Source: Comamonadaceae bacterium
GTDB taxonomy: Bacteria; Pseudomonadota; Gammaproteobacteria; Burkholderiales; Burkholderiaceae_C
Direction: 5' to 3'
Length of the DNA stretch: 64,000 nucleotides
NCBI GenBank assembly: GCA_947443645.1
Contig: CANEXF010000002.1
Location: forward strand, 1-64,000
This document shows positions 42,181-63,984 of the stretch, piece after piece (the stretch's first letter is position 1; every line of letters begins with the position of its first letter). The position numbers and the translations under genes are program-made. The notes under the pieces were generated by a model. It was not told the DNA's origin. It searched no databases and saw only the letters and a list, made by a program, of their open reading frames with translations.

Positions 42181-42462
42181 ATGAAAAAGACAGCCTCAGC
42201 TGCGGCGCTTGATGCCGCGGACATCTCCCGCATCATCGAGATGGCCTGGGAAGACCGCACGCCCTTTGAGGCGATTGAACTGCAATTTGGTCTGAACGAG
42301 TCGGCCGTTGTCGACCTCATGCGCGCGGGCATGAAAGCCTCGTCTTTCAGGATGTGGCGCAAGCGCATGAAGGGCCGCGTGACCAAACATGCCGCGCTGC
42401 GGCCCGAGAGCATGAACGATGGCGGCCCGCATATTGCGCGGCACCGGATTCCCCAGCGCTAG
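42181..42462 (+). CDS. TIGR03643/DUF2805 family protein
   Basis: 93 aa. DISRIIEMAWEDRTPFEAIELQFGLNESAVVDLMRAGMKASSFRMWRKRMKGRVTKHAAL is characteristic of a small helix-turn-helix-like family of unknown function. The start is uncertain: ATG 42181 or ATG 42154, neither with a clear ribosome site. It converges with cobA so tightly that the two stop codons share the palindrome CTAG at 42459-42462. Confidence 0.82.
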   Translation: MKKTASAAALDAADISRIIEMAWEDRTPFEAIELQFGLNESAVVDLMRAGMKASSFRMWRKRMKGRVTKHAALRPESMNDGGPHIARHRIPQR

Positions 42463-43259
42463 CCGAAATTCTTCCGGTCAGACGCGTGCTCTGCACCGCT
42501 CAATGCGGCCAGCCCGTGCAGCACATTGCCGACCACGATCACGCTGGGGCTTTGCAGGCCTTCGCGCTCTATGGTTTCGCGCAATGCGCACAGCGTGGTC
42601 ACAGCATGACGCTGTGCTGGCAGGCTGGCGTTCTGAATGATCGCCACTGGCGTTTGAGCGTCCAGACCCTGCAGCAACTGGTCCTGGATATGTTGCGAGC
42701 CGGTCACGCCCATGTAGATCACCAGCGTCAGCCTGGCCTGCGCGGCGGTGGCCGCCAGCGCGGCCCAGTCGCAGCCTTCGTCGCCTGGCTTGGCATGGCC
42801 GGTCACAAACACCACGCCATGCGCGTGTTGGCGGTGCGTGAGCGGCACGCCCAATGAGGTCACGGCAGCCAGGCCGGCGGTGATGCCGTTGATGACTTGA
42901 ACTTCAATGCCGGCGGCGCGCAAGTGCTCGACTTCCTCACCACCACGGCCAAAAATGAAGGGATCGCCGCCTTTGAGGCGCACCACCTTGTCGCCCTCGC
43001 GCACGGCCATCAGCATGAGCTTTTCAATAAAGGCCTGCGGCGTTGACTTGCAGCCGCCACGCTTGCCAACATAGACGACGCGTGCTGCGGGATTGGCAAA
43101 AGCCACGATTTCTTCGCTGACCAGGTCGTCCACAAACAGCACCGTGGCAGCCTGAATGGCTTTGAGGGCCTTGAGCGTGAGCAGCTCGGGGTCACCCGGC
43201 CCCGCGCCCACCAGCGTGCAGCTGCCGTTGCCGGCGAGAAAATAAGAATTGTTGTTCAT
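42459..43259 (-). CDS. cobA: Uroporphyrinogen-III C-methyltransferase (CobA/SUMT)
   Basis: 266 aa. It doubly methylates uroporphyrinogen III to precorrin-2, the precursor of siroheme. Landmarks: VGAGPGDPELLTLKALKAIQAATVLFVDDLVS, YVGKRGGCKSTPQ, VVRLKGGDPFIFGRGGEEVEHLRAAGIEVQVINGITAGLA and VIYMGVTGSQHI. Single-domain SUMT without the CysG oxidase/chelatase part. It ends the nitrate operon and so supplies the siroheme of NirB. Overlaps ybiB by ATGA. Confidence 0.96.
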   Translation of the reverse strand: MNNNSYFLAGNGSCTLVGAGPGDPELLTLKALKAIQAATVLFVDDLVSEEIVAFANPAARVVYVGKRGGCKSTPQAFIEKLMLMAVREGDKVVRLKGGDPFIFGRGGEEVEHLRAAGIEVQVINGITAGLAAVTSLGVPLTHRQHAHGVVFVTGHAKPGDEGCDWAALAATAAQARLTLVIYMGVTGSQHIQDQLLQGLDAQTPVAIIQNASLPAQRHAVTTLCALRETIEREGLQSPSVIVVGNVLHGLAALSGAEHASDRKNFG

Positions 43260-44167
43260 AGTTGAACCACTAGACGCAAGATGTGTTCCACCTGCCGGGC
43301 AATCGACGCCGGAACGGCTCGCTCACCGGCCAATACGGATTGAATATACGCCGCTGTGCTGGCCGCGTCGGTTGTTTTTGGCAGATCGGGCAGCTTGGGC
43401 AGTGTGCCGCTCTGGGCCGCTTGCAGCAGTTGGCGCTGGCCACCCACAAAGGCTTCCATTTGCGGCATGCGGCGTGCGTCGGCCACCACTTCGCCTTCGG
43501 TGCCGCGCAGCAGCATGGCATTGGCCTGGATCAGCTCGAAGGTCTGGCCCATGGACAGCGCATATTCGGGATGCGTGTAGCTGCTGAGCACCAGGCTTTT
43601 CCCCAGGCAGGGATTCATGATCTTGACCAGGCTGTGCGCCGGATTGCGCAGGCCCACGGCACGGCGCACGTCCAGCAGACGTTTGAGCGCCGGACAAAGC
43701 AGTTCGGTCGGGACAAATGCCAGTTCGCCGGGCGCTATTGAATCAATAGCTGTTTGCGCCGGTATGCCAAGGGCTAGCAGCACTTCTGATGCAAAAACGC
43801 GGCTGGATTCGGTGGGGCTGCCATGGATCAGAACGGCCAGGCCTTCCCGCGCGAGCAACAAGGCCAGCAAAGGCGTGAGCACGGGCAGCTTGCGCGCACC
43901 GTTGTAGCTCGGCAGCACCACGGTGGGTGAATTTGCGCTGTTTGCGGGCAGGTGGTTCAGCCGCTGGTGTGTGGCGTCGAGAAAGCCAGCCATTTCTTCA
44001 GGTGTTTCGCCCTTGATGCGCATGGCCAGGCAAAAGGCGCCGATTTCGAGGTCGGTCACGACGCCGTCAAGTACTTGCCCCATCAGGTCTGCGGCCTGGG
44101 CGCGCGACAAAGGCCGGGCACCGTCTTTGCCGCGCCCGATTTCCTTGATGTACTGACTGATGCTCAT
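43256..44167 (-). CDS. ybiB: DNA-binding protein YbiB (TrpD2 family)
   Basis: 303 aa. Glycosyltransferase-3-like fold related to anthranilate phosphoribosyltransferase: SISQYIKEIGRGKDGARPLSRAQAADLMGQVLDG and VVTDLEIGAFCLAMRIKGET at the N-terminus, VLPSYNGARKLPVLTPLLALLLAREGL in the middle. TrpD2 proteins bind nucleic acid and have no known enzyme activity; a place next to nitrate genes is common in Burkholderiales but unexplained. Residues near 136-146 (AQTAIDSIAPG) lie in a dispersed repeat. Start at ATG 44167. Confidence 0.9.
   Translation of the reverse strand: MSISQYIKEIGRGKDGARPLSRAQAADLMGQVLDGVVTDLEIGAFCLAMRIKGETPEEMAGFLDATHQRLNHLPANSANSPTVVLPSYNGARKLPVLTPLLALLLAREGLAVLIHGSPTESSRVFASEVLLALGIPAQTAIDSIAPGELAFVPTELLCPALKRLLDVRRAVGLRNPAHSLVKIMNPCLGKSLVLSSYTHPEYALSMGQTFELIQANAMLLRGTEGEVVADARRMPQMEAFVGGQRQLLQAAQSGTLPKLPDLPKTTDAASTAAYIQSVLAGERAVPASIARQVEHILRLVVQL
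43731..43760. repeat. AT-centred dispersed repeat inside ybiB
   Basis: GCTATTG-AAT-CAATAGC hairpin (43734-43750) flanked by GGCGC and GCGCC. It is in frame within ybiB and encodes the Gln-Thr-Ala-Ile-Asp-Ser-Ile stretch. Confidence 0.68.
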
Positions 44168-44252
44168 GAGATGTTGTGCCCTTGCGGCCATTGTCGGCTA
44201 AGGCAGATAACCTAGGCTTATTAGCTTAAGCCTCACGCCCGGCTTGAAGCGC

Positions 44253-47156
44253 TCAGGCGATTTGCTTGATCGCGATCACGCTGCGCTGTGCTGCCTGGCC
44301 TGCAGCGGGCGCGGCATTTCGGGCGTCGCGCACACGGCGTTTGAGCTCGGGTATGCAGGAGCCGCAATTGGTGCCGCATTTCAAGCTGTCCTGCAGCGCT
44401 GCCAGCCGCTCCTGGTCCGTTGCGAGATAGCCTGCGCCGCTGCTTCCAAGGCTGATGCCCTGGCTCAATAACTGCAGCTGCGCGTCAATCGCTGTATCGG
44501 TGACGTTCAGGCAGGTGCAAACCAGCTTGCCGCGCGTTTGAATCGCCACTGGCGCCTTGGCGCCCGGCAACAGCAAGAGACGGCCGTAAGCCTGTGCCGG
44601 TAGTTCATCCTGCAGCAGGGTTTTGATCCATGCCTCGGCACTGGTGTCACCGGCCAGCAAGAAGCCAAGCAGCTCGGCATGCTGGTCCACACGTTGCAGG
44701 CGCGCACTGCGGCGCTGGCCTTTGTTCCTGTCGGCATAACGCAGAACGTCCGCGCCATCCAGACCCAGAATGCGTTCAATGCTGGCCAGTATTTCATCCG
44801 CAGGCGCTTCATGGCCCGCGGCACGAAACAGCACACCGCCTCGCTCGCGGCCTGGCGCTCCAGCTAACGGCGTGTTGTTTGAAAACGGCACACAACTGGT
44901 GAAGGCAAAGGCCTTCATGAAGGGCTTGAGCTGCTCGCGCGCAGTGAGTGCCGTGTCGTCGGGCAGCCAGGCCATGGCTAGCAGCGACCAGGGCAGCTCG
45001 GCCTTGAGAATCTTGACGGCCGCATGCTTGAGCTCGGGTTGCTTGGAGCTCGGGCAATACGCCGAGGTGGTCAGCGCATTAATGCCTGCCAGTGGCTCGC
45101 CTATGCTGGACACGCCGCTCAAATACTCCTCACCCCAGTGCATGGCGATGAAGGCCTGGCTTACCGCTACTTCGGCGCTGGCCTGCAGCGGCACGACGAT
45201 GGAGCCACGTTTGGACGTCACTTGCACCAGATCACCGTCCTTGAGCAGCCTGCGCGCCATGTCGCTGGCATTCATCTGCACGCATGGCTCGGCCACATGG
45301 CCAAACAGCCGGCCCAGCGTGCCGGTGCGGCTCATGCCATGCCACTGGTCACGCAGTCGACCGGTGGTCAGGGAAAACGGAAAGCGCGATTCGCGCGGCT
45401 CTGCGACCGGCTTGTAGACGGTGTTGACAAAGCGCGCCTTGCCGTCTTCGGTCGGGAAGATACCGTCTTCATAAAGCCTGGTCTTGCCCGTGCTTTCGCC
45501 AGTTTTTAAAGGCCATTGCTGGGGCGCGGCTTCCAGCATCGCGTAGCTCATGCCGGTGATGTCCAGGTCGCGCCCGCGGGTGGACTCGCGGTGTTCATTC
45601 CAGATCGCCTCTATGCCCGCGGTTTCGTCGGTCAGCGAATAGGGAAAAAGGGTTGGGCGCAGCGGCTGCAGCAAGGCCTCCAGCCGCTGCGCAAACTCCA
45701 CCGCAATCGACCAGTCGTGGCGCGCTTCGCCTGGCGGTTTGACGGCCGGCCTGACGCGGCTGATGCGTCGCTCGCTGTTGGTGACCGTGCCCATTTTTTC
45801 GCCCCAGGTGCTGGCCGGCAACAACAGGTCGGCGTAGTCGCAACTCGAAGGCGTGGCAAAAGCTTCCTGCACGATCACCAGTTCTGCGCGCTCCAGCGCG
45901 CGGCGCACGGTGGCCTGGTCGGGCATGGACTGGGCGGGATTGGTGCAGGCAATCCAGAGTGCCTTGATTTCACCATCGGCCGCGGCCTCAAACATCTCGA
46001 CAGCCGACTTGCCCGGCTTGTAGGGCACGCTGGCTATGCCCCAGAGCGCCGCAACTTCAGCGCGGTGATCAGGGTTAGCCATGTCCCGGTGCCCGCTCAT
46101 GAGGTTGGCCAGGCCGCCGACTTCACGGCCGCCCATGGCATTGGGCTGGCCGGTCAGCGAAAACGGTCCTGCGCCGGGCTTGCCAATCTGGGCTGTGGCC
46201 AGATGCAGGTTGATCAGTGCCGCATTTTTTGCCGTGCCGCTGCTGGACTGGTTCAGGCCCTGGCAGTACAGGCTCAGTGTTGCGGCGGATGTTGCGAACA
46301 TTTTCGCCGCCGCAAACAGGTCTTCCTTTTTGATGCCGCAGGTCTCGGCCACCAGCTCGGGGGTGTAGTCACGCACGGTGGCCTTGAGCGCCTCAAAGCC
46401 GGTGGTGTGCGCGGCGATGTAGGCCGTGTCGGTCCAGCCTTCCCACAGCATGAGGTGCAGCATGCCGTTGAACAAGGACACATCGGTGCCGGGCTGGATA
46501 GGCAAATACAGGTCGGCAATCTCGGCGGTATCGGTGCGGCGCGGGTCGCAAAAAATAATCTTCAGCGCCGGATTGGCGGCCTTGGCGTCCTCAATGCGCC
46601 TGAACAGGATGGGGTGCGCGTAGGCGGTGTTGCTGCCGACAATGAAGATGCACTGCGCATGGTTCACGTCGTCGTAGCAGCTTGGCGGCGCATCGGCGCC
46701 CAGTGTCTGCTTGTAGCCGGCGACCGCGCTGCTCATGCACAGGCGCGAGTTGGTGTCGACGTTGTTGGTGCCCAGCAGGCCCTTGGCCAGCTTGTTGAAG
46801 ACGTAATAGTCTTCGGTCAGCAACTGGCCGGAGATGTAAAAGCCGACCGCATCGGCGCCGTGCTCGCCAATGATCTGGGCAAAGCTTTCAGCTGCGAATG
46901 TCAGCGCGCTGTCCCAGGACAGCCGTTTGGGCGCCTCATGCCTGTGCTCACGCCGCATCGGGTAGAGCAGCCGTGTTTGCCGCGTGACGGATGCCGACGC
47001 CGTCAGCGCCAGCGTCGAACCCTTGGTGCACAGCCGTCCAAAGTTGGCAGGATGGTCCGGGTCACCCCTGACACCTGTGATCTGCTCTGCAGTGGACTCA
47101 ATGATCACGCCGCACCCCACCCCACAGTAGGGGCAGGTTGATCGTGTTTGCTTCAC
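44253..47156 (-). CDS. nasA: Assimilatory nitrate reductase, catalytic subunit
   Basis: 967 aa. Reduces nitrate to nitrite in the cytoplasm with Mo-bis-MGD. An N-terminal [4Fe-4S] site starts with STCPYCGVGCGV (about 7-18) and ends at GRLCTKG; the molybdopterin domains follow (YFISGQLLTEDYYVFNKL-type region, GTNNVDTNSRLCMSSAV, LFGHVAEPC near 680). A Bfd-like [2Fe-2S] domain at the C-terminus has LVCTCLNVTDTAI and CGTNCGSCIPEL. The upstream in-frame part from 47240 is repeat sequence, so I start at GTG 47156. AGGCTTA-6nt-TAAGCCT (44214-44233) follows the gene. Confidence 0.94.
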   Translation of the reverse strand: MKQTRSTCPYCGVGCGVIIESTAEQITGVRGDPDHPANFGRLCTKGSTLALTASASVTRQTRLLYPMRREHRHEAPKRLSWDSALTFAAESFAQIIGEHGADAVGFYISGQLLTEDYYVFNKLAKGLLGTNNVDTNSRLCMSSAVAGYKQTLGADAPPSCYDDVNHAQCIFIVGSNTAYAHPILFRRIEDAKAANPALKIIFCDPRRTDTAEIADLYLPIQPGTDVSLFNGMLHLMLWEGWTDTAYIAAHTTGFEALKATVRDYTPELVAETCGIKKEDLFAAAKMFATSAATLSLYCQGLNQSSSGTAKNAALINLHLATAQIGKPGAGPFSLTGQPNAMGGREVGGLANLMSGHRDMANPDHRAEVAALWGIASVPYKPGKSAVEMFEAAADGEIKALWIACTNPAQSMPDQATVRRALERAELVIVQEAFATPSSCDYADLLLPASTWGEKMGTVTNSERRISRVRPAVKPPGEARHDWSIAVEFAQRLEALLQPLRPTLFPYSLTDETAGIEAIWNEHRESTRGRDLDITGMSYAMLEAAPQQWPLKTGESTGKTRLYEDGIFPTEDGKARFVNTVYKPVAEPRESRFPFSLTTGRLRDQWHGMSRTGTLGRLFGHVAEPCVQMNASDMARRLLKDGDLVQVTSKRGSIVVPLQASAEVAVSQAFIAMHWGEEYLSGVSSIGEPLAGINALTTSAYCPSSKQPELKHAAVKILKAELPWSLLAMAWLPDDTALTAREQLKPFMKAFAFTSCVPFSNNTPLAGAPGRERGGVLFRAAGHEAPADEILASIERILGLDGADVLRYADRNKGQRRSARLQRVDQHAELLGFLLAGDTSAEAWIKTLLQDELPAQAYGRLLLLPGAKAPVAIQTRGKLVCTCLNVTDTAIDAQLQLLSQGISLGSSGAGYLATDQERLAALQDSLKCGTNCGSCIPELKRRVRDARNAAPAAGQAAQRSVIAIKQIA

Positions 47157-47157
47157 G

Positions 47158-47266
47158 CCCTCTCCCACTGGGAGAGGACGGGGGTGAGGGCGCCCCGTAT
47201 TGCCTGGGTTGGTCACGCTGGTCACGCCGCTGGCCCTCACCCTAGCCCTCTCCCAGAGGGAGAGGA
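47158..47266. repeat. Inverted pair of CCCTCTCCC/GGGAGAGG elements
   Basis: Unit A (47158-47192) carries CCCTCTCCCACTGGGAGAGG then GGGGGTGAGGGC; unit B (47233-47266) carries GCCCTCACCCTAGCCCTCTC then CCAGAGGGAGAGG in the opposite orientation. The pair fills the nirD-nasA junction. B supplies the last codons of nirD (SPLPLGEG) and A sits just upstream of the nasA start. Confidence 0.82.
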
Positions 47267-47637
47267 GACAAGAGTTTTGGCCCGGCCGCCGGCCGCGTCA
47301 GGTCTATCGCCAGTGTCGCGAGTTCTGCGGCATCAAGGTGCACCGCGCCGTCTGCAACGCGCACGCTGAATTTTGGTGTGCAGCCTTCATCAGGCGCTTT
47401 GGCGCAGCCGCCTTCGAGGTCTATGGTCCAGTTGTGCAGCGGGCAGGCCACGCTGGTGCCAAACACGATGCCCTGGCTCAGTGGCCCGCCTTTGTGCGGG
47501 CAGCGGTCCAGCAGCGCGAACACGCCGTCCACTTCATTGCGAAACACAGCCACGTCCAGGCCGTGCGCGCGCGCCACGCGGCGCGAGCCCAGCACCGGGA
47601 TGTCAGTGACCAGGCAGATTTTTTTCCATTCAGACAT
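47242..47637 (-). CDS. nirD: Nitrite reductase small subunit NirD
   Basis: 131 aa Rieske-like protein, partner of NirB. VLGSRRVARAHGLDVAVFRNEVDGVFALLDRCPHKGGPLSQGIVFGTSVACPLHNWTIDLEGGCA shows C-P-H-K-G and C-P-L-H-N-W Rieske [2Fe-2S] ligands, although many NirD proteins lack the cluster. The last eight residues (SPLPLGEG) are encoded by a dispersed repeat, so the native C-terminus was probably shorter or different. Confidence 0.93.
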   Translation of the reverse strand: MSEWKKICLVTDIPVLGSRRVARAHGLDVAVFRNEVDGVFALLDRCPHKGGPLSQGIVFGTSVACPLHNWTIDLEGGCAKAPDEGCTPKFSVRVADGAVHLDAAELATLAIDLTRPAAGPKLLSPLPLGEG

Positions 47638-47660: not shown

Positions 47661-50123
47661 TCAGGCCGGAGCGAGCTTTTCAAATTGCCGTGTGTCCACC
47701 GCTGCGTCCTTGAAATCGAACCAGGGATCGGGCTCGCCGTCGAGCGCAAATTGCAGGCGCTCCCACAATGCCTTGCGGCCTTCGTGGTCTTCAAGAATGC
47801 GTTTTTTGACATAGTCCAGGCCGACCCGGTTCACGTAATGCACGGTGCGCTCCAGGTACCAGCCCTCCTGGCGGTAGAGCTCGCAAAACGCGCCGGTGTA
47901 TTCCAGTACTTCCGCAGGCGTTTTCACCTTGGTGAAAAAGTGCGCCACCTCGGTCTTGATGCCACCATTGCCGGCGATATACATTTCCCAGCCGGAGTCA
48001 ACACCTATGATGCCGACGTCCTTGATGCCGGATTCGGCGCAATTGCGCGGGCAACCGCTGACGGCAAACTTGACCTTGTGCGGTGCGTACATGCGCCACA
48101 TCGCGCGTTCCAGGTCCTTGCCCATTTGCGTGGAGTCCTGCGTGCCCATGCGGCACCATTCGCTGCCGACACAGGTTTTGACGGTGCGCAGCGCCTTGGC
48201 GTAGGCATGTCCCGAAGGCATGCCGATGTCTTTCCAGACATTGACCAGGTCTTCTTTTTTCACGCCCAGCAGGTCAATGCGCTGGCCACCTGTGACCTTG
48301 ACTGTCGGGATCTTGTACTTGTCTACAGCGTCGGCAATCCGGCGCAACTCGCTGGAGGTCGTCTCGCCGCCCCACATGCGCGGGATCACGCTGTAGGTGC
48401 CGTCTTTTTGAATGTTTGCGTGGCTGCGCTCGTTGATGTAGCGGCTTTGCGGATCGTCCTTTGCCTCCTTGGGCCAGGTGCTGGTGACGTAGTAGTTGAT
48501 GGCCGGGCGGCAGCTGGCGCAGCCATTGGGCGTGCGCCAGGCCATGGTTTTGTAGACCTCGCCTATCGTGAGCAGTTTGTTGTCGCGTATCGCGTCACGC
48601 ACGGCCTGGTGGCCATGGTCGGTGCAGCTGCACATGGCTTTGAGCTTGGGCGTGGCCGAGTAGTCGCCGCCTGCAGTGAACATCAGTATCTGCTCGACCA
48701 GGCCGGTGCACGAGCCGCAAGACGCGCTGGCTTTGGTGTGCTTGCGCACTTCATCAAGCGTGAACAGACCTTTTTCCTTGATGGCCTTGCAGATCGCGCC
48801 TTTGGTCACGCCATTGCAACCACAGACTTCGGCGTTGTCCGGCATGCTTGCCGCCTTGCTGTGGCCTTCATGGCCGGTGTCGCCAATATTGGATTCGCCG
48901 AACATCAGCTTGTCGCGTATGCCCGCCACGCTGCGGCCATCCCTGAGGAGCTTGAAGTAGTAGCTGCCGTCGACGGTGTCGCCATAAAGGCAGGCGCCTA
49001 TCAGCTTGTCGTCCTTGATGACCAGTTTTTTGTAGACCCCGCCAAACGGGTCGCTCATGACGATCTCTTCGGCGCCGTCGCCGCCCATGAAGTCGCCGGC
49101 ACTGAACAGGTCTATGCCGGTGACCTTGAGTTTGGTTGAGGTCAGTGAGCCGGTGTAGCGGCCAATGCCGAACTGGGCCAGATGGTTGGCGGCGACCTTG
49201 GCCTGCTCGAACAGTGGCGCGACCAGGCCATAGGCAATGCCTCTGTGCGCGGCGCACTCTCCGACCGAGTAAACGCGCGCATCGGTCACGGTCTGCATGG
49301 TGTCGTTGACGACAATGCCCTTGTTGCAATGCAGGCGCATGGACTCGGCCAGTGCGGTGTTGGGGCGAATGCCGACGGCCATCACCACCAGATCGGTGGC
49401 TAGCTCGCTGCCGTCCTTGAATTTGATGGCTGTGACCCGGCCAGCTTTGCCGCCGTCTTCACTGCCTACCAACTCCTCGGTCTGCGCGCCCATCAGGAAC
49501 TTCAGGCCGCGATCTTCCAGCGACTTTTGCAGCAGCTTGCCGGCGACGCTGTCGAGCTGGCGCTCCATCAGCGTGGGCATGACATGCACGACGCTGACTT
49601 CCATGCCGCGCAGCATCAGGCCATTGGCCGCTTCCAGGCCCAGCAGGCCGCCACCAATGACCACGGCTTTTTTGTATTTGACGGACGCGTCAATCATGGC
49701 GTTGGTGTCGGCAATGTCGCGGTAGGCGATCACGCCTGCCAGTTCCTTGCCGGGAACAGGCAGCATGAATGGGTTGGAGCCGGTACACATCAGCAGGCGG
49801 TCGTAAGCGACTTGCGTGCCGTCTTCGGCGCGCACGACGCGCTTGATGCGGTCCACTTCAGCGACTTTTTTGCCCGCGTGCAGCGTGATGTGGTTGTCGC
49901 TGTACCAGTCCCAGTTGTTGAGCACGATCTCGTCCAGCGTCTGCTCGCCGGCCAGCACCGGGCTCAGCAGGATACGGTTGTAGTTGGGGTGCGGCTCGGC
50001 GCCAAAGACCGTGATGTCGTACATGTCGGGCGCGATTTTCAGCAGCTCCTCCAGCGTGCGCACACCGGCCATGCCGTTGCCCACCATCACCAGCTTTTGC
50101 TTCGTTTTTAATTGCATATCCAT
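47661..50123 (-). CDS. nirB: Nitrite reductase large subunit NirB
   Basis: 820 aa. NADH-dependent reduction of nitrite to ammonium. FAD/NAD domain: KLVMVGNGMAGVRTLEELL (about 10-28) and VVIGGGLLGLEAANGL. A Bfd-like [2Fe-2S] domain with VCGCNGVTKGAICKAI and SCGSCTGLVEQIL (about 425-475). A second CxxC-rich part, then the siroheme-[4Fe-4S] domain with TCVGSEWCRMGTQDS and FAVSGCPRNCAESGIKD (about 645-700). Depends on siroheme from the cobA branch in the same operon. Confidence 0.96.
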   Translation of the reverse strand: MDMQLKTKQKLVMVGNGMAGVRTLEELLKIAPDMYDITVFGAEPHPNYNRILLSPVLAGEQTLDEIVLNNWDWYSDNHITLHAGKKVAEVDRIKRVVRAEDGTQVAYDRLLMCTGSNPFMLPVPGKELAGVIAYRDIADTNAMIDASVKYKKAVVIGGGLLGLEAANGLMLRGMEVSVVHVMPTLMERQLDSVAGKLLQKSLEDRGLKFLMGAQTEELVGSEDGGKAGRVTAIKFKDGSELATDLVVMAVGIRPNTALAESMRLHCNKGIVVNDTMQTVTDARVYSVGECAAHRGIAYGLVAPLFEQAKVAANHLAQFGIGRYTGSLTSTKLKVTGIDLFSAGDFMGGDGAEEIVMSDPFGGVYKKLVIKDDKLIGACLYGDTVDGSYYFKLLRDGRSVAGIRDKLMFGESNIGDTGHEGHSKAASMPDNAEVCGCNGVTKGAICKAIKEKGLFTLDEVRKHTKASASCGSCTGLVEQILMFTAGGDYSATPKLKAMCSCTDHGHQAVRDAIRDNKLLTIGEVYKTMAWRTPNGCASCRPAINYYVTSTWPKEAKDDPQSRYINERSHANIQKDGTYSVIPRMWGGETTSSELRRIADAVDKYKIPTVKVTGGQRIDLLGVKKEDLVNVWKDIGMPSGHAYAKALRTVKTCVGSEWCRMGTQDSTQMGKDLERAMWRMYAPHKVKFAVSGCPRNCAESGIKDVGIIGVDSGWEMYIAGNGGIKTEVAHFFTKVKTPAEVLEYTGAFCELYRQEGWYLERTVHYVNRVGLDYVKKRILEDHEGRKALWERLQFALDGEPDPWFDFKDAAVDTRQFEKLAPA

Positions 50124-50249: not shown

Positions 50250-51059
50250 TCAGGCCGCTTTTTCCACATGCGCCTGGCGCGTGTAGAGAAAGTCAATCAC
50301 GGCTTTGCGGTAATGCAGGTATTGCGTGCTTTCCGCGAGCGCCACGCGGTTGCGCGGCCTGGCCAGCTCGATGCTGAGAACTTCACCTATGGTGGCTGAA
50401 GGACCGTTGGTCATCATCACGATCTTGTCCGACAGCAGCACCGCTTCGTCCACATCGTGGGTGACCATCACCACCGTGCTTTGGGTGTTGGCGACAATCT
50501 GCAGCAACTCGTCCTGCAGCTTGGCCCGGGTCAGCGCATCGAGGGCGCCAAAGGGCTCGTCGAGCAACAGCACCTTGGGCTCCATGGACAGCGCGCGCGC
50601 AATGCCGACCCGCTGCTTCATGCCACCAGAAATTTCGCCAGGACGTTTTTGCGCCGCTGCCGTGAGCCCGACCATGGCTAGCACCGCATCGGTGCGTGCC
50701 CTGAGCTGGGCCTTGTTCTCGCTGGTCGAAAACACCCGCTCGACCGCCAGGTAGACGTTTTCAAAGCAGGTCAGCCAGGGCAGCAGCGAGTGGTTTTGAA
50801 ACACCACGGCGCGCTCCGGACCGGGTCCGGCGATTTCCCGGTTGGCGCACAGCAGCGTGCCTTGTGTGGGCGTGGTCAGGCCGGCAATCAGGTTGAGCAG
50901 CGTGGATTTGCCGCAGCCGGAGTGGCCTATCAGCGTGACAAACTCGCCTTTGGCGACCGTCAGGTTGATGTTCTTGAGCGCGCAGAACGGACCTTTGCGG
51001 GTTTTAAAGGTCTGCTCCACGTCCTGGATTTCGATGTACTTGGTGGTCAATGAGGTCAT
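50250..51059 (-). CDS. nrtD: Nitrate ABC transporter ATP-binding protein
   Basis: 269 aa. Walker A GHSGCGKSTLLNLIAG (about 45-60), Q-loop VFQNHSLLPWLT, signature SGGMKQRVGIARAL (about 150), Walker B VLLLDEPFGALDALTR and H-loop VTHDVDEAVLLSD. NrtD/SsuB/TauB subfamily without the C-terminal binding domain of NrtC. The Met at 51059 is chosen because upstream in-frame residues (GGPRKRS) come from the repeat at 51080-51157. Confidence 0.94.
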   Translation of the reverse strand: MTSLTTKYIEIQDVEQTFKTRKGPFCALKNINLTVAKGEFVTLIGHSGCGKSTLLNLIAGLTTPTQGTLLCANREIAGPGPERAVVFQNHSLLPWLTCFENVYLAVERVFSTSENKAQLRARTDAVLAMVGLTAAAQKRPGEISGGMKQRVGIARALSMEPKVLLLDEPFGALDALTRAKLQDELLQIVANTQSTVVMVTHDVDEAVLLSDKIVMMTNGPSATIGEVLSIELARPRNRVALAESTQYLHYRKAVIDFLYTRQAHVEKAA

Positions 51060-51079
51060 GATGTGGCTCCGTTTGCGGG

Positions 51080-51157
51080 GACCACCGCGGAACCGGCTTT
51101 GCCGGGCCGCTGGTGGTGCCACCTTGAGGGGGAGGCGCCGAAGGCGCTTCGGGGGAG
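51080..51157. repeat. C-rich dispersed repeat between nrtB and nrtD
   Basis: CCGCGGAACCGGCTTTGCCG, GGCCGCTGGTGG and TTGAGGGGGAGGCGCCGAAG. A second copy of the same family within the nitrate operon. Confidence 0.75.
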
Positions 51158-51167
51158 AACTTTTATT

Positions 51168-52061
51168 TCAGTTCTTGACTTCTTCAAACGTGAAGGCCGT
51201 GGCCAGTTTGATCAGCGCGTACTCGAGCAGCAGACCAACGATGCCGATCACAAAGATCGCGATGATGATGTTCTTGACGTTCAGGTTGTTCCACTCGTCC
51301 CAGACCCAGAAGCCGATGCCTACGCCGCCGGTCAGCATTTCCGCCGCGACGATGACCAGCCAGGCGGTGCCCACTGCCAGGCGAACGCCGGTCAACATAT
51401 AGGGCAGTACGGCGGGAAAGAGGATCTTGGTGACGATCTTCCATTCACTGAGGTTGAGTACGCGGGCCACGTTCATGTAGTCCTGCGGTACGCGCTGCAC
51501 GCCAACTGCGGTGTTGATGATCATGGGCCAGATCGAGCAGATGAAGATGGTCCAGATGGCCGCCGGGTTGGCGCCCTTGAAGACCAGCAGGCCAATCGGC
51601 AACCACGCCAGCGGCGACACCGGCCGCATCAGGCTGATCAGCGGATTGAACATGCGGCTCAAAAAGGTGAAGCGGCCTATCAGGAAACCCACCGGTATGC
51701 CGACAAGGGCGGCGAGCCCAAAGCCCAGCGCCACGCGCTTGAGCGATGACAGCACGTTCCAGCCCACGCCCTGGTCGTTGGGGCCTTTGCTGTAAAACGG
51801 ATCACGAAAGATCTGTATCGCCTGGATCAAGGTGTCCTTGGGTGAGGGAATGCTCGCGCCGGTTCCAAGCGACACCATCTCCCACACCAGCGCCAGCAGG
51901 CCCAGACCCAGAACAGGCGGCAATATTCCCATCCAGAGAAACGACATGTCGCGCTGTGGCCTGCTGGCTTTGCTGGCGGCCAATGGCGCGACAGCTGCGC
52001 CTTTGGCGGTGGCTGCGGGTGCAGCGGTGTCCAGGGGGTTGTGAAATACTGCGCTGACCAT
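51168..52061 (-). CDS. nrtB: Nitrate ABC transporter permease
   Basis: 297 aa with about six hydrophobic segments. The EAA loop is in YMNVARVLNLSEWKIVTKILFPAVLPYMLTGVRLAVGTAWLVIVAAEM (about 195-245), which contacts NrtD. N-terminal 40 residues are Ala-rich and cytoplasmic. It forms the membrane channel for nitrate (or nitrite) uptake between NrtA and NrtD. Confidence 0.94.
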   Translation of the reverse strand: MVSAVFHNPLDTAAPAATAKGAAVAPLAASKASRPQRDMSFLWMGILPPVLGLGLLALVWEMVSLGTGASIPSPKDTLIQAIQIFRDPFYSKGPNDQGVGWNVLSSLKRVALGFGLAALVGIPVGFLIGRFTFLSRMFNPLISLMRPVSPLAWLPIGLLVFKGANPAAIWTIFICSIWPMIINTAVGVQRVPQDYMNVARVLNLSEWKIVTKILFPAVLPYMLTGVRLAVGTAWLVIVAAEMLTGGVGIGFWVWDEWNNLNVKNIIIAIFVIGIVGLLLEYALIKLATAFTFEEVKN

Positions 52062-52100: not shown

Positions 52101-53348
52101 TCAGGCCGCGTGGACTTTGAAGCTGTCGGCGTACTTTTTCGGGTCCTTGCCGTCCCAGACCACGCCGTCCATCAGCTTGCTGCTGCGCATCACGTCTTTC
52201 GGTACGGCGATCTTGGCGGCGCTTGCGGCCTGCTTGTAAATGTCGATCTGGTTGATCTGCTTGGCCAGCGCCAGGTAGTCCGGATGCTCCTTGATCAGGC
52301 CCCAGCGCTTGTGCTGGGTCAGGAACCACATACCGTCCGACAGGTAGGGGAAGTTCACCGCGCCATCGCCGGAAAACTTCATGTAGTTGGGGTCATCCCA
52401 GGTTTTGCCCATGCCGTTCTGGTAGCGGCCCAGAATACGCTGGTTGATCGCGTCCACGCTGGTGTTGACATAGCTCTTGTCGGCGATGGTTTCGGCCATC
52501 TTGTTCTTGTTGGTCAGACTGGCGTCAATCCACTTGCCGGCTTCCAGGATCGCAGCGGTCACGGCGCGCGCCGTGTTCGGGTATTTCCTGGTGAATTCGG
52601 CCGTGGTGCCTAGCACCTTTTCAGGATGGTCCTTCCAGATGTCCTGTGTGGTGATGGCAGTCACGCCTATGCCGTCAATGATGGCGCGGTGGCCCCAGGG
52701 CTCACCGACGCAAAAACCATCCATGTTGCCCACCCGCATATTGGCCACCATTTGCGGTGGTGGCACGGTGATGACCTTGGCGTCTTTCATCGGGTTGATG
52801 CCATTGGCTGCCATCCAGTAATACAGCCACATCGCGTGGGTGCCGGTGGGGAAGGTCTGGGCAAAGGTGTATTCGCGCTTGTCGGAGGCCATGAGCTTGG
52901 CCAGGCCAGCCCCGTCCACGGCACCCTTGTCGGCGAGTTTTTTCGACAGCGTGATGGCCTGCCCATTGTTGTTGAGCGTCATCAGCACCGCCATGTCCTT
53001 CTTGGGGCCTGCGGTACCCATGTGCACGCCGTAGAGCAGGCCGTACAGCACATGGGCAAAGTCGAGTTCGCCATTGACCAGCTTGTCGCGCACACCGGCC
53101 CAGCTTGCTTCCTTGGTCGGAATGATGGTCACGCCGTATTTCTTGTCTATGCCTAGTACCGAGGCCATCACCACCGAGGCGCAGTCGGTCAAGGGGATAA
53201 AGCCGATCTTGACTTCCTTTTTTTCCGGCGCGTCCGAGCCCTGCGCATAGACTGCCGCGCGCAGCGCCGGACTGATGCCAACCGCGCCCACGGTGGCGGC
53301 CTGCAGCACGCTGCGGCGGGTCAGTGAAGATTTCAGCAATTCAGTCAT
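52101..53348 (-). CDS. nrtA: Nitrate ABC transporter substrate-binding protein
   Basis: 415 aa. Tat-type leader LTRRSVLQAATVGAVGIS then the NrtA/CmpA periplasmic binding fold: VKIGFIPLTDCASVVMASVLGID (about 46-68), EASWAGVRDKLVNGELDFAHVLYGLLYGVHMG, and FCVGEPWGHRAI. The RR motif and signal peptide point to the transported receptor rather than the cytoplasmic sensor NasS, which lacks a leader. First gene of the nrtABD-nirBD-nasA-ybiB-cobA operon. Confidence 0.93.
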   Translation of the reverse strand: MTELLKSSLTRRSVLQAATVGAVGISPALRAAVYAQGSDAPEKKEVKIGFIPLTDCASVVMASVLGIDKKYGVTIIPTKEASWAGVRDKLVNGELDFAHVLYGLLYGVHMGTAGPKKDMAVLMTLNNNGQAITLSKKLADKGAVDGAGLAKLMASDKREYTFAQTFPTGTHAMWLYYWMAANGINPMKDAKVITVPPPQMVANMRVGNMDGFCVGEPWGHRAIIDGIGVTAITTQDIWKDHPEKVLGTTAEFTRKYPNTARAVTAAILEAGKWIDASLTNKNKMAETIADKSYVNTSVDAINQRILGRYQNGMGKTWDDPNYMKFSGDGAVNFPYLSDGMWFLTQHKRWGLIKEHPDYLALAKQINQIDIYKQAASAAKIAVPKDVMRSSKLMDGVVWDGKDPKKYADSFKVHAA

Positions 53349-53399
53349 GTTGAGTCACTCCAGAAGGTAAAAAAGGAAATCAATACCGGGACAGAAAAC

Positions 53400-53504
53400 A
53401 AAAAAGGCGCTCGACCAGAGCAGCCACGTCAAACGTGGGTGCAGGGTGCGAACGCCTTTGTTCTTGATAGAGACACTTCGCTTCGCCGTTGAATCGAAAT
53501 GTCT
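53400..53504 (-). promoter_or_regulatory. ANTAR-type antitermination leader with terminator
   Basis: Reading the minus strand. P1 (53504-53471): outer stem AGACATTTCG with CGAAGTGTCT, inner TTC/GAA, hexaloop AACGGC (53490-53485). P2 (53463-53450): GAAC-AAAGGC-GTTC. Both loops have A at position 1 and G at position 4, the ANTAR hallmark. The terminator (53459-53400) pairs AAAGGCGTTCG with CGAGCGCCTTT and is followed by T6. P2 shares the 5' arm of the terminator, so the two are mutually exclusive: ANTAR-protein binding would allow transcription of nrtA. NasT is encoded nearby. Confidence 0.86.
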
Positions 53505-53518
53505 TGCCTTCAAGATTA

Positions 53519-53534
53519 AGCAATACTCGTGCCA
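53519..53534 (-). promoter_or_regulatory. Sigma-54 promoter of the nitrate operon
   Basis: Minus-strand TGGCACGAGTATTGCT matches TGGCACR-N4-TTGCW at all fixed positions. The predicted start near 53508 lies 4 nt before P1 of the ANTAR leader, giving a leader of about 160 nt. An NtrC-like site is upstream at 53665-53681. Confidence 0.82.
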
Positions 53535-53664
53535 ATGCTATTTGAGTCTGCTTTGGTTTGAGTTTTTAAATGGAATGTTCCCGGAACGTCCTGCTGGTGA
53601 ACGCAGGCAGCTACTTATTTAATAGCGAATGGGGTTGGCTGAGCTGCTGCGAGCGGGCGTGTGC

Positions 53665-53681
53665 TGCACTGCTTTTGTGCG
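53665..53681. promoter_or_regulatory. Candidate NtrC enhancer site
   Basis: TGCACTGCTTTTGTGCG fits TGCAC-N7-GTGCA with one mismatch and lies about 165 bp upstream of the predicted sigma-54 start, a normal enhancer distance. A weaker half-match (TGCACCATTTCGGTCTT, 53683-53699) adjoins it. Confidence 0.6.
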
Positions 53682-53818
53682 CTGCACCATTTCGGTCTTG
53701 AATCGCGGCGCGTGGCCTTGGCTGAGCTGGCCTGGGTCAGCCAGACGCGGGCCAGCGCCAGTTCAGGCGCTTGGACGCCGAGCGAGGGCGGTAGTGCAGG
53801 CAGTCAAGACGCATTTAG

Positions 53819-53851
53819 CCCGGTGCAGCCTGCAGCGAGGGCTGCACCGGG
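53819..53851. other. Strong 12-bp hairpin after the collagen-like gene
   Basis: CCCGGTGCAGCC pairs perfectly with GGCTGCACCGGG around a 9-nt loop. It begins 16 bp after the stop codon of the collagen-like gene. No T run follows on either strand, so it may be an RNA-stabilising or factor-dependent end. The rest of 53535-53866 carries the NtrC-like site, an AT-centred repeat at 53589-53630 and no visible gene. Confidence 0.7.
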
Positions 53852-53866
53852 ATTGTCCTGTGAGCT

Positions 53867-54217
<351 letters not shown>

Positions 54218-54405
54218 TCACTCAGCGCGACGACTTTGCTGCACGCATTGAAATGAGCTGGTAGACCCGATTCACTGACACCGCCGACTGGCTTTGTGCC
54301 CTGAATTGGTGACCGTGAACGTTTTTACGGTGCGCTCGAGCGGCCTGGCGTAGGACAGTTGCGGTAGCCGCTGTGGGCCAGGCGCACGCTGGCGTGGGGC
54401 GGCAA

Positions 54406-55038
54406 TCAGCCCAGCAGGTCGGCCACGTCGAGCATGCGCTGGGCTACATCGGCCATGCGCAGGCCTTTGTCCATGGCCGCTTTTCTGAGCTTTTCATAGG
54501 CTTGGGGCTCGGTCAGGCCCTGGCGCTGCATCAGAAGTGCCTTGGCCTTGTCGAGCAGCTTGCGCTCCTGCAGCTCGGTCCTGGCATCGGCCAGCTCGCG
54601 TCTCAGGCCTTGCTCATGCCGGAATCTGGCCATAGCCACCTCGAGAATCGGGCGTATGCGGGCGGGCTCCAGCCCGGCCACGATGTAGGCCGAAACACCG
54701 GCGGCCACCGCGTCATCGACGTGACTGGTGTCGTTGTCGTTGGTAAACAGCACAATGGGGCGCCGCTCGTCGCGTGTGGCCATCACCACATGCTCCAGCG
54801 AGTCACGCGCGTCGCTTTCGGCATCCACAATGATCATGTCGGGTTGCAATTGCGCCAGGCGTTCGCGCAAAAAGGTGTCTGCGGGCAACGTGGCAACCAG
54901 GTTGAACCCGCCTTCGAGCAGCCCGATGCGCAATTGACGCGAGCGGTCTATCAACGCCAATGCGGCGTCGTCCGCAGCCTCAGCGACGGCCAGATCTGGT
55001 GCAATAACCACCAGGCGCAATAAATGGGGCGACTTCAT
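54406..55038 (-). CDS. nasT: ANTAR-domain response regulator NasT
   Basis: 210 aa. An N-terminal pseudo-receiver domain (about 7-125; LVVIAPDLAVAEA, PDMIIVDAESDARD, VLFTNDND, AAGVSAYIV) is followed by an ANTAR RNA-binding domain (about 145-205; ELQERKLLDKAKALLMQRQGLTEPQAYEKLRKAAMDKGLRMADVAQRML). NasT proteins bind two-hairpin leaders and prevent termination of nitrate operons, normally restrained by NasS. The matching leader lies upstream of nrtA; nasS is not adjacent. The 227-bp gap after it (54179-54405) has no visible gene. Confidence 0.92.
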   Translation of the reverse strand: MKSPHLLRLVVIAPDLAVAEAADDAALALIDRSRQLRIGLLEGGFNLVATLPADTFLRERLAQLQPDMIIVDAESDARDSLEHVVMATRDERRPIVLFTNDNDTSHVDDAVAAGVSAYIVAGLEPARIRPILEVAMARFRHEQGLRRELADARTELQERKLLDKAKALLMQRQGLTEPQAYEKLRKAAMDKGLRMADVAQRMLDVADLLG

Positions 55039-63899: not shown

Positions 63900-63984
63900 G
63901 CGGATGTGGTGAAATTGGTAGACACGCTATCTTGAGGGGGTAGTGGCGAAAGCTGTGCGAGTTCGAGTCTCGCCATCCGCACCA
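63900..63984 (+). tRNA. tRNA-Leu (anticodon GAG)
   Basis: 85 nt including encoded CCA. Acceptor GCGGATG pairs with CATCCGC; the D-loop GGTAGACACGC is followed by anticodon stem CTATC/GGTAG with loop TTGAGGG (anticodon GAG), a long variable arm typical of class II tRNAs, and T-loop GTTCGAGTC. Its place after secG matches the conserved secG-tRNA-Leu-nuo order; nuoA would lie just beyond the window. Confidence 0.96.

Follow-up and report, generated by a model that had tools for sequence, protein, structure and literature searches.

The locus described here raises two questions: how RNA polymerase is let into a nitrate-assimilation operon that lies behind a transcription terminator, and how an ANTAR regulator that works without NasS learns of nitrate, the latter being a question that can be tested. 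In Paracoccus, NasT is held by NasS, a signal-less protein related to NrtA, as long as nitrate and nitrite are absent (PMC3795266), and in the Burkholderiales NasT is reported to be present, with NasS described as devoid of the signal of its transporter relatives (PMC5424462). In the window, by which we mean the whole stretch of 64,000 nt that was analysed, a leader precedes nrtA on the reverse strand. Judging from its sequence and that of its relatives, we read it, with a probability of about 0.9, as a NasT-responsive antitermination switch at which transcription would stop by default.

Gene content of the locus

The initial annotation had read the order nrtA-nrtB-nrtD-nirB-nirD-nasA downstream of the leader and had placed nasT 0.9 kb upstream of it; profile matches bear out the gene order, and the position of nasT is correct (Table 1). 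The name nasA rests on the context, since the best curated models fall below their cut-offs for this gene. No ANTAR match other than NasT was found in the draft genome, which has 3.2 Mb. Curated models match the receiver part of NasT weakly, its relatives in the PDB are 1s8n, 6wsh, NasR (4akk) and AmiR (1qo0), and the closest named relatives are those of Polaromonas and other Comamonadaceae, to which the host would thus probably belong.

Between nasT and the leader lies a collagen-like gene with a nine-base periodicity and, by eye, the lipobox LTAC. This gene is not a part of the switch, and it explains some of the long gap between nasT and the leader; the gap from nasT to nrtA is far shorter in many loci of the same family. 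A perfect 12-bp inverted repeat follows the collagen-like gene at 53819-53851. The initial annotation was silent on this gene, as it was on the sigma54 motif, the NtrC dyad and the absence of NasS. At their gathering scores, the Rfam models match nothing in the window but a tRNA gene at 63900-63981 (+), and a plasmid search with the stretch 53300-54500 gave no match.

Table 1. Features of the nitrate locus in the window, by increasing position.
Feature	Position	Strand	Basis or sequence
cobA-type uroporphyrinogen-III C-methyltransferase (siroheme for NirB)	42459..43259	-	NF004790 above cut-off
ybiB	43256..44191	-	NF006005 above cut-off
Assimilatory nitrate reductase (nasA type)	44253..47240	-	Molybdopterin and Fe4S4 domains
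nirD	47242..47637	-	TIGR02378 above cut-off
nirB	47661..50123	-	TIGR02374 above cut-off
nrtD ATPase	50250..51122	-	ABC_tran
nrtB permease	51168..52061	-	TIGR01183 above cut-off
nrtA, nitrate-type substrate-binding protein	52101..53348	-	PF13379, E 1.9e-101
Intrinsic terminator, 11 pairs, with inner hairpin	53403..53459	-	AAAGGCGTTCG (53459-53449) pairs with CGAGCGCCTTT (53413-53403); then T6 at 53405-53400
P2, second ANTAR-type hairpin	53450..53463	-	GAAC-AAAGGC-GTTC, loop 53459-53454
Linker from P1 to P2, 7 nt	53464..53470	-	CTATCAA
P1, first ANTAR-type hairpin	53471..53504	-	AGACATTTCGATTC-AACGGC-GAAGCGAAGTGTCT, loop 53490-53485
sigma54 promoter motif	53519..53534	-	TGGCACGAGTATTGCT, zero mismatches to TGGCACGNNNNTTGCW
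NtrC-type dyad	53666..53680	-	GCAC-N7-GTGC (GCACAAAAGCAGTGC)
Collagen-like small lipoprotein	53867..54178	-	PF01391 (Collagen), E 2.9e-9
nasT, 210 aa, receiver-like and ANTAR domains	54406..55038	-	PF03861, E 2.2e-18

Anatomy and folding of the leader

Two reverse-strand hairpins with the hexaloops AACGGC and AAAGGC, each with A at position 1 and G at position 4 (A1/G4), had been described in the initial annotation, along with a 7-nt linker and an 11-bp terminator that ends in T6 and shares the loop and 3' arm of the second hairpin. The hairpins, which we call P1 and P2, proved correct to the base, and the linker and the terminator are present in the window sequence as they had been given. The loop of P1 is closed by a C-G pair, and its stem contains one 1x1 mismatch and one U-G pair. 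The 5' arm of the terminator is made of the P2 loop, the P2 3' arm and one more base.

Folding of the leader had been proposed as a check. The 116-nt stretch adopts P1 plus the terminator at -50.0 kcal/mol (equalled by 0 of 200 shuffles, z -5.5), and the 64-nt terminator piece reaches -32.0 kcal/mol (again equalled by 0 of 200 shuffles). Cut at the end of P2, the stretch folds as P1 plus P2 at -16.7 kcal/mol (5 of 200 shuffles equal, z -2.4), so that the two hairpins by themselves are modestly above chance. Since P1 plus the terminator is the preferred full-length fold, the default outcome is taken to be the end of transcription, and P2 is expected to exist only before the terminator is completed or if it is held by something. 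A simple terminator scan of the window showed no enrichment (2 found vs 1.8 expected).

Several features that mark the ANTAR class of leaders are found here: tandem A1/G4 hexaloops, the C-G closing pair, the overlap of P2 with the terminator, and an ANTAR protein in the genome. The 7-nt linker also falls inside the workable range of 5-12 nt reported for the eut leaders of Enterococcus faecalis, in which linkers of 3 and 14 nt weakened induction (PMC3369931).

The promoter and a proposed course of events

The sigma54 motif upstream of P1 is the sole mismatch-free match to TGGCACGNNNNTTGCW in the window, where 11 matches with up to two mismatches occur, under the chance expectation of 23. From its -12 position we predict a transcription start at about 53508, and the motif is kept 5' of the leader in relatives. 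The NtrC-type dyad further upstream is a single site that is not significant alone, the window holding six exact GCAC-N7-GTGC dyads vs 4.0 expected. Of 28 loci examined, 16 (among them L042, which is not a nas leader) have an exact dyad 5' of their sigma54 motif, where shuffles of single letters, as opposed to dinucleotides, would give 0.02. At the level of motifs, the region would be a sigma54/NtrC promoter, with a -24/-12 motif and an NtrC dyad upstream. The initial annotation had set the switch downstream of initiation control, and the perfect sigma54 motif and the conserved dyad fit that placement. In Acidovorax citrulli, an ntrC deletion mutant is reported to be unable to use nitrate as the sole nitrogen source and to have a lower transcript of the gene that its authors name nasS (PMC10052978), a result that fits NtrC control in the family.

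The following course of events may be proposed. Under nitrogen shortage, phosphorylated NtrC and sigma54 would start transcription near 53508, and RNA polymerase would make P1, P2 and then the terminator, which would capture the loop and 3' arm of P2, such that by default transcription would stop about 110 nt into the leader of about 160 nt. Active NasT, by analogy with EutV and NasR, would grip both hexaloops through A1 and G4 as an ANTAR dimer; with P2 held, the terminator would be blocked and the polymerase would enter nrtABD-nirBD-nasA-ybiB-cobA. NasT binding, readthrough and dependence on NtrC are the steps that we infer.

Leaders in related genomes

A gapped pattern running from the sigma54 motif to P2 matched 111 of 399 genomes of the same family; it is present in 4 of the 5 other genomes of the same genus, and its backward-read control gave 0 among the matches listed. 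Such a distribution argues strongly against a chance origin of the leader, and with this strict pattern the control of nitrogen assimilation by NtrC plus ANTAR antitermination appears to spread widely through the Burkholderiales. We collected 174 leaders, partly by the pattern and partly by the narK RNA family (RF03032). Their P2 letters are not independent evidence, because the leaders were collected through the pattern, with loop letters 1 and 4 of P2 built into the search rule. The hexaloop hairpins 5' of P2, on which no loop rule was imposed, have A1/G4 in 115 of 122 cases; in a non-redundant set of 134 leaders the count is 88 of 94 hexaloops, vs 1.0 of 10.0 in shuffles. A loss of A1/G4 from homologous leaders, which would have spoken against the reading of the initial annotation, is thus not what is seen. 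In a few of the 174 leaders (such as L030, L081, L085 and L089), the label P2 sits on a hairpin that is in fact P1.

The gene after the leader is nrtA in 131 of the 174 loci, nirB in 31, nasA in 2 and none of these in 10. These ten include transporters of the MFS type, recognized by Pfam in L102, L237 and L246 and as the same type by eye in L127 and L254, as well as one nitrate-reductase-associated protein, one OprD porin and one EAL protein; in L051 and L128 the script found no ORF after the leader. The leader stands 5' of nrtA even where nasT is located elsewhere (L335, L346).

Twelve near leaders, the window included, were aligned with MAFFT with no use of structure. In this alignment 84.8% of the P1 and P2 cells are paired, vs a shuffled mean of 78.4 (0 of 500 as high) and 32-45% in slid versions, and two-sided changes number 24 vs 13.1. 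The P1 columns have 80% of their cells paired, and 9 of their 13 pairs have changed on both sides. P2 is invariant, as is most of the outer stem of the terminator, and there is no covariation support for P2 in these twelve leaders because it never varies there. In a set of 144 leaders, the third letter of the P2 loop (A or C) matches the 3' arm of the terminator (T or G), with A-T in 88 and C-G in 34. The search behind this set required pairs 1 to 4 of P1 and 9 of the 11 terminator pairs, and the window leader, whose P1 stem is interrupted, falls outside it. A terminator that shares the P2 loop and 3' arm is also found in relatives, where the spacing from loop to loop is 14-72 nt.

P2 loops that start with G occur in 14 of the 174 leaders (GAAGGC in 9, GACGGC in 4 and GATGGC in 1; examples are L129, L134, L145 and L170), under a search rule that admitted only A or G at position 1. 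The leader pattern occurs once in the genome of the window but two or three times in several genomes of the same family (G517, G793, G769, G010 and others), which possibly hold small regulons.

Besides P1, another hairpin with an A1/G4 hexaloop stands ahead of P2 in 15 of the 134 non-redundant leaders, vs 0 in 40 shuffle sets; shuffling outside P1 alone gave 0.7 on average and 2 at most, vs 15 of 112 leaders with this third hairpin. It was first spotted by a search that demanded A1/G4. Without that demand the site is mixed, with other loops by eye in L016, L018, L020 and L027, and tetraloops cap 20 of the 36 additional hairpins that lie 5' of P1. The leaders with a third hairpin include L032, L044, L102, L108, L127, L245 and L246, together with the near relatives L267 and L268, whose loops at this site are AAGGAT and AAAGAT (by eye). 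The window leader, with its two hairpins, has no third one of ANTAR type.

Relation to Rfam families

Comparison with covariance models had been proposed as a check on the leader. P11 (RF00625) and narK RNA (RF03032) both match the window over their full length, with 27.9 bits against a gathering score of 70 and 22.3 bits against 43.2, respectively; the window leader is therefore not a member of either family at the gathering score, though its anatomy is the same. The alignment with the narK RNA model covers the sigma54-like stretch, P1 and the P2 loop. P11 or narK RNA matches 8 of 19 relatives at E<=0.1, each below gathering, and a search of the window's own genome with RF03032 returned nothing at E<=0.001. 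Weak sub-gathering matches to Ref64 (an Enterococcus sRNA), ctRNA_p42d, a microRNA and a snoRNA at or around the terminator were taken as chance.

Among 300 Burkholderiales genomes, 53 have a narK RNA match at E<=0.01, which exceeds the cut-off in 3, and an ANTAR protein was matched in 148; 27 of the 30 narK RNA loci that were fetched belong to the set of 174 leaders. The leader could in principle be a plain attenuator or an sRNA gene that has nothing to do with NasT, either through leader-peptide attenuation or as a stand-alone RNA of the P11 type, as its terminator and the filing of P11 among the sRNAs in Rfam would allow. We consider this very improbable, given that A1/G4 is kept in the loops, that nasT lies nearby and that an ANTAR protein is found in 51 of the 53 carriers of narK RNA vs 97 of the 247 other genomes (Fisher p 7e-16, the species not being independent). 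P11 is presumably the NalA leader RNA, and its alignment agrees with this. The models suggest that P11 and narK RNA are ANTAR leaders represented together with their sigma54 promoter; in a limited literature search, we found no publication that describes narK RNA as an ANTAR leader.

NasT without NasS

The draft genome is 99.97% complete, and NasS, that is, a signal-less NMT1_2 protein, was not found in it. It has 15 NMT1_2 matches at E<=0.001, of which the best 8 all carry an export-type signal by eye; the other 7 reach at most 44.5 bits, vs 250-313 for nine NasS-type proteins of other families. A second NrtA/NasS-type protein on the other side of nasT is seen in 0 of 30 loci of the same family. 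The proposal that NasT controls the operon keeps its ground in the ANTAR leader anatomy and in NasT itself, but it had overlooked that the usual gate, NasS, is not found. A limited literature search turned up no published description of NasT without NasS.

What, then, would tell NasT of nitrate? NasT could always be active, such that the switch depends on NasT and is not gated by nitrate, and NtrC/sigma54 or the level of NasT decides. The failure to find NasS in the genome agrees with this, as does a single NMT1_2 match at E<=1e-30 in 12 of 25 genomes of the same family (the other 13 have further NMT1_2 proteins, which were read in part), but with constitutive readthrough one would hardly expect so many genera to have kept a terminator and the two loops; we see this as possible, at well below even odds.

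Another reading, which we think unlikely, is that some other signal is the main input to NasT, for instance c-di-GMP or the phosphorylation of the receiver-like domain. In P. putida, c-di-GMP is reported to bind NasT, whose affinity for NalA then falls (Nie et al. 2024, as given in the review PMC12830290). Genes for PAS-GGDEF and EAL proteins lie after nasT in L021 and after the leader in L119, respectively, but these two cases are single loci. The residue at the place of the usual receiver Lys is not Lys in the NasT alignment (by eye), and phosphorylation of NasT is doubtful because of this replacement.

In 22 of 54 aligned NasT rows (L012-L031, L033 and L034), about 14 extra residues follow the first strand of the receiver-like domain, L032 and L037 having been removed from the alignment beforehand. 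We rejected this insertion as a mark of NasS loss: L035, L036 and L038-L041 are without the insertion and also have no adjacent NasS, and the Massilia NasT that stands beside a signal-less NasS has extra residues at the same place by eye.

NrtA as a candidate sensor

The NrtA of the window has a signal of the twin-arginine type, LTRRSVLQAATVGAVGISPALRAAVYA, as judged by eye, and proteins with such signals fold before export. Elsewhere, a signal-less NasS-like protein follows nasT in 7 of the 70 named loci L259-L328 (L298, L309, L311, L313, L318, L321 and L322), and a separate one occurs in the Rhodoferax MAG L279. In our NrtA/NasS tree, which has some long branches and whose bootstrap had not settled, those seven, L048, L052, L054 and the long-branched L051 group together (98/100) inside the exported NrtA of the Burkholderiales, and L279 is placed elsewhere, among the NrtA of the Comamonadaceae (85/99). 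L051 had been assigned by hand to NasS_A, yet the tree puts it, with a very long branch, among NasS_B; L047, L307, L310 and L323, called signal-less by the hydropathy rule, were relabelled before the tree was made for an RR motif or a hydrophobic stretch. The NrtA signal ends in the stretch AWAAGSD, to which AWIAGSD or AWVAGSD corresponds in L313, L318 and L321; what these three retain is, to judge by its letters, a remnant of the NrtA cleavage region. Since the signal-less NasS beside NasT in Massilia and its allies nests inside exported NrtA, exported NrtA becomes a candidate sensor, and the tree suggests a path from a part of a transporter to a cytoplasmic sensor.

NasT might thus be gated by NrtA, the folded cytoplasmic pre-NrtA holding NasT until it is bound by nitrate, as NasS does. 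We offer this tentatively. The nesting of the signal-less proteins, with L279 as a second and separate case, and the cleavage-region remnant point to it, but nesting speaks of descent and not of present function, and it is read from the tree just qualified. Gene order also points to it, nasT being followed by nrtA within 1.5 kb in 27 of the 30 same-family loci examined; the further NMT1_2 proteins in 13 of the 25 genomes of the family count against it. Of 20 named genomes that were searched whole, 8 have a signal-less copy, 3 of these without any other strong NMT1_2 protein. In the other 12, whose NasT locus holds no signal-less copy, a single NMT1_2 match at 1e-30 is found in 8, and the best match bears an RR-type signal in 11, with L346 as the unclear case, in accordance with an NrtA gate.

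Extended to the NasS-less Burkholderiales, this becomes a still more tentative proposal: NrtA would sense nitrate before its export and hold or free NasT accordingly, and when the importer is swapped for another, NrtA would lose its signal and become NasS, which may have happened at least twice. After the leader, L298, L309, L311 and L318 have one type of MFS transporter, recognized by Pfam in L298 and by eye in the others. If NrtA gates NasT, the leader opened by NasT would control nrtA, and importer and sensor would form a feedback loop. In L313 and L322 the leader lies between nasT and the signal-less nasS, where the sensor may itself be under the switch. A second nitrate-type ABC transporter lies at L010:7316-10461 (-), in the same genome, and its binding protein of 474 aa is extended by a long stretch at the N terminus and contains an RR motif.

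Comparison with known systems

By its anatomy, the conservation of A1/G4 and the nitrate genes downstream, the leader joins the NasR/NasT class of nasF and NalA. The nasF leader of Klebsiella oxytoca, like that of the window, has two C-G closed A1/G4 hexaloops and a terminator, and NasR is reported to act on these two hairpins through control of the terminator (PMC7496416). NasR senses nitrate through its own NIT domain, whereas the 210-aa NasT of the window has no Pfam match to NIT, ANTAR being its only match, and is not a one-component regulator of that kind. The eut leaders of Enterococcus faecalis and EutV follow the same two-hairpin rule, with loop positions 1 and 4, limits on the linker and overlap with the terminator (PMC3369931), but they serve another pathway, and EutV is activated by phosphorylation from a kinase. 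With narK RNA (RF03032), the window has in common the sigma54-like stretch, P1 and the P2 loop, at a score below gathering.

NalA, the nirBD leader of P. aeruginosa, P. putida and P. protegens, shares with the window the sigma54 promoter, NtrC (in P. aeruginosa), the terminator and NasT, and antitermination by NasT at NalA together with a sigma54 promoter and NtrC is reported for the nitrate-assimilation operon (PMC12830290, PMC3973561). It differs in that nirB comes first there, and here nrtA of an ABC transporter comes first and no NasS was found. In the NasS-NasT systems of Paracoccus denitrificans and Azotobacter vinelandii, an ANTAR NasT acts on the leader of nitrate-assimilation genes as we propose here, but there a signal-less NasS gates NasT (PMC3795266); the genome of the window has the NasT of this pair, with its receiver-like and ANTAR parts, and none of its 15 NMT1_2 matches was recognized as NasS. 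The circuit is in this sense a variant of the NasS-NasT system. The device at its centre is already known, since Pseudomonas NalA and Klebsiella nasF work alike.
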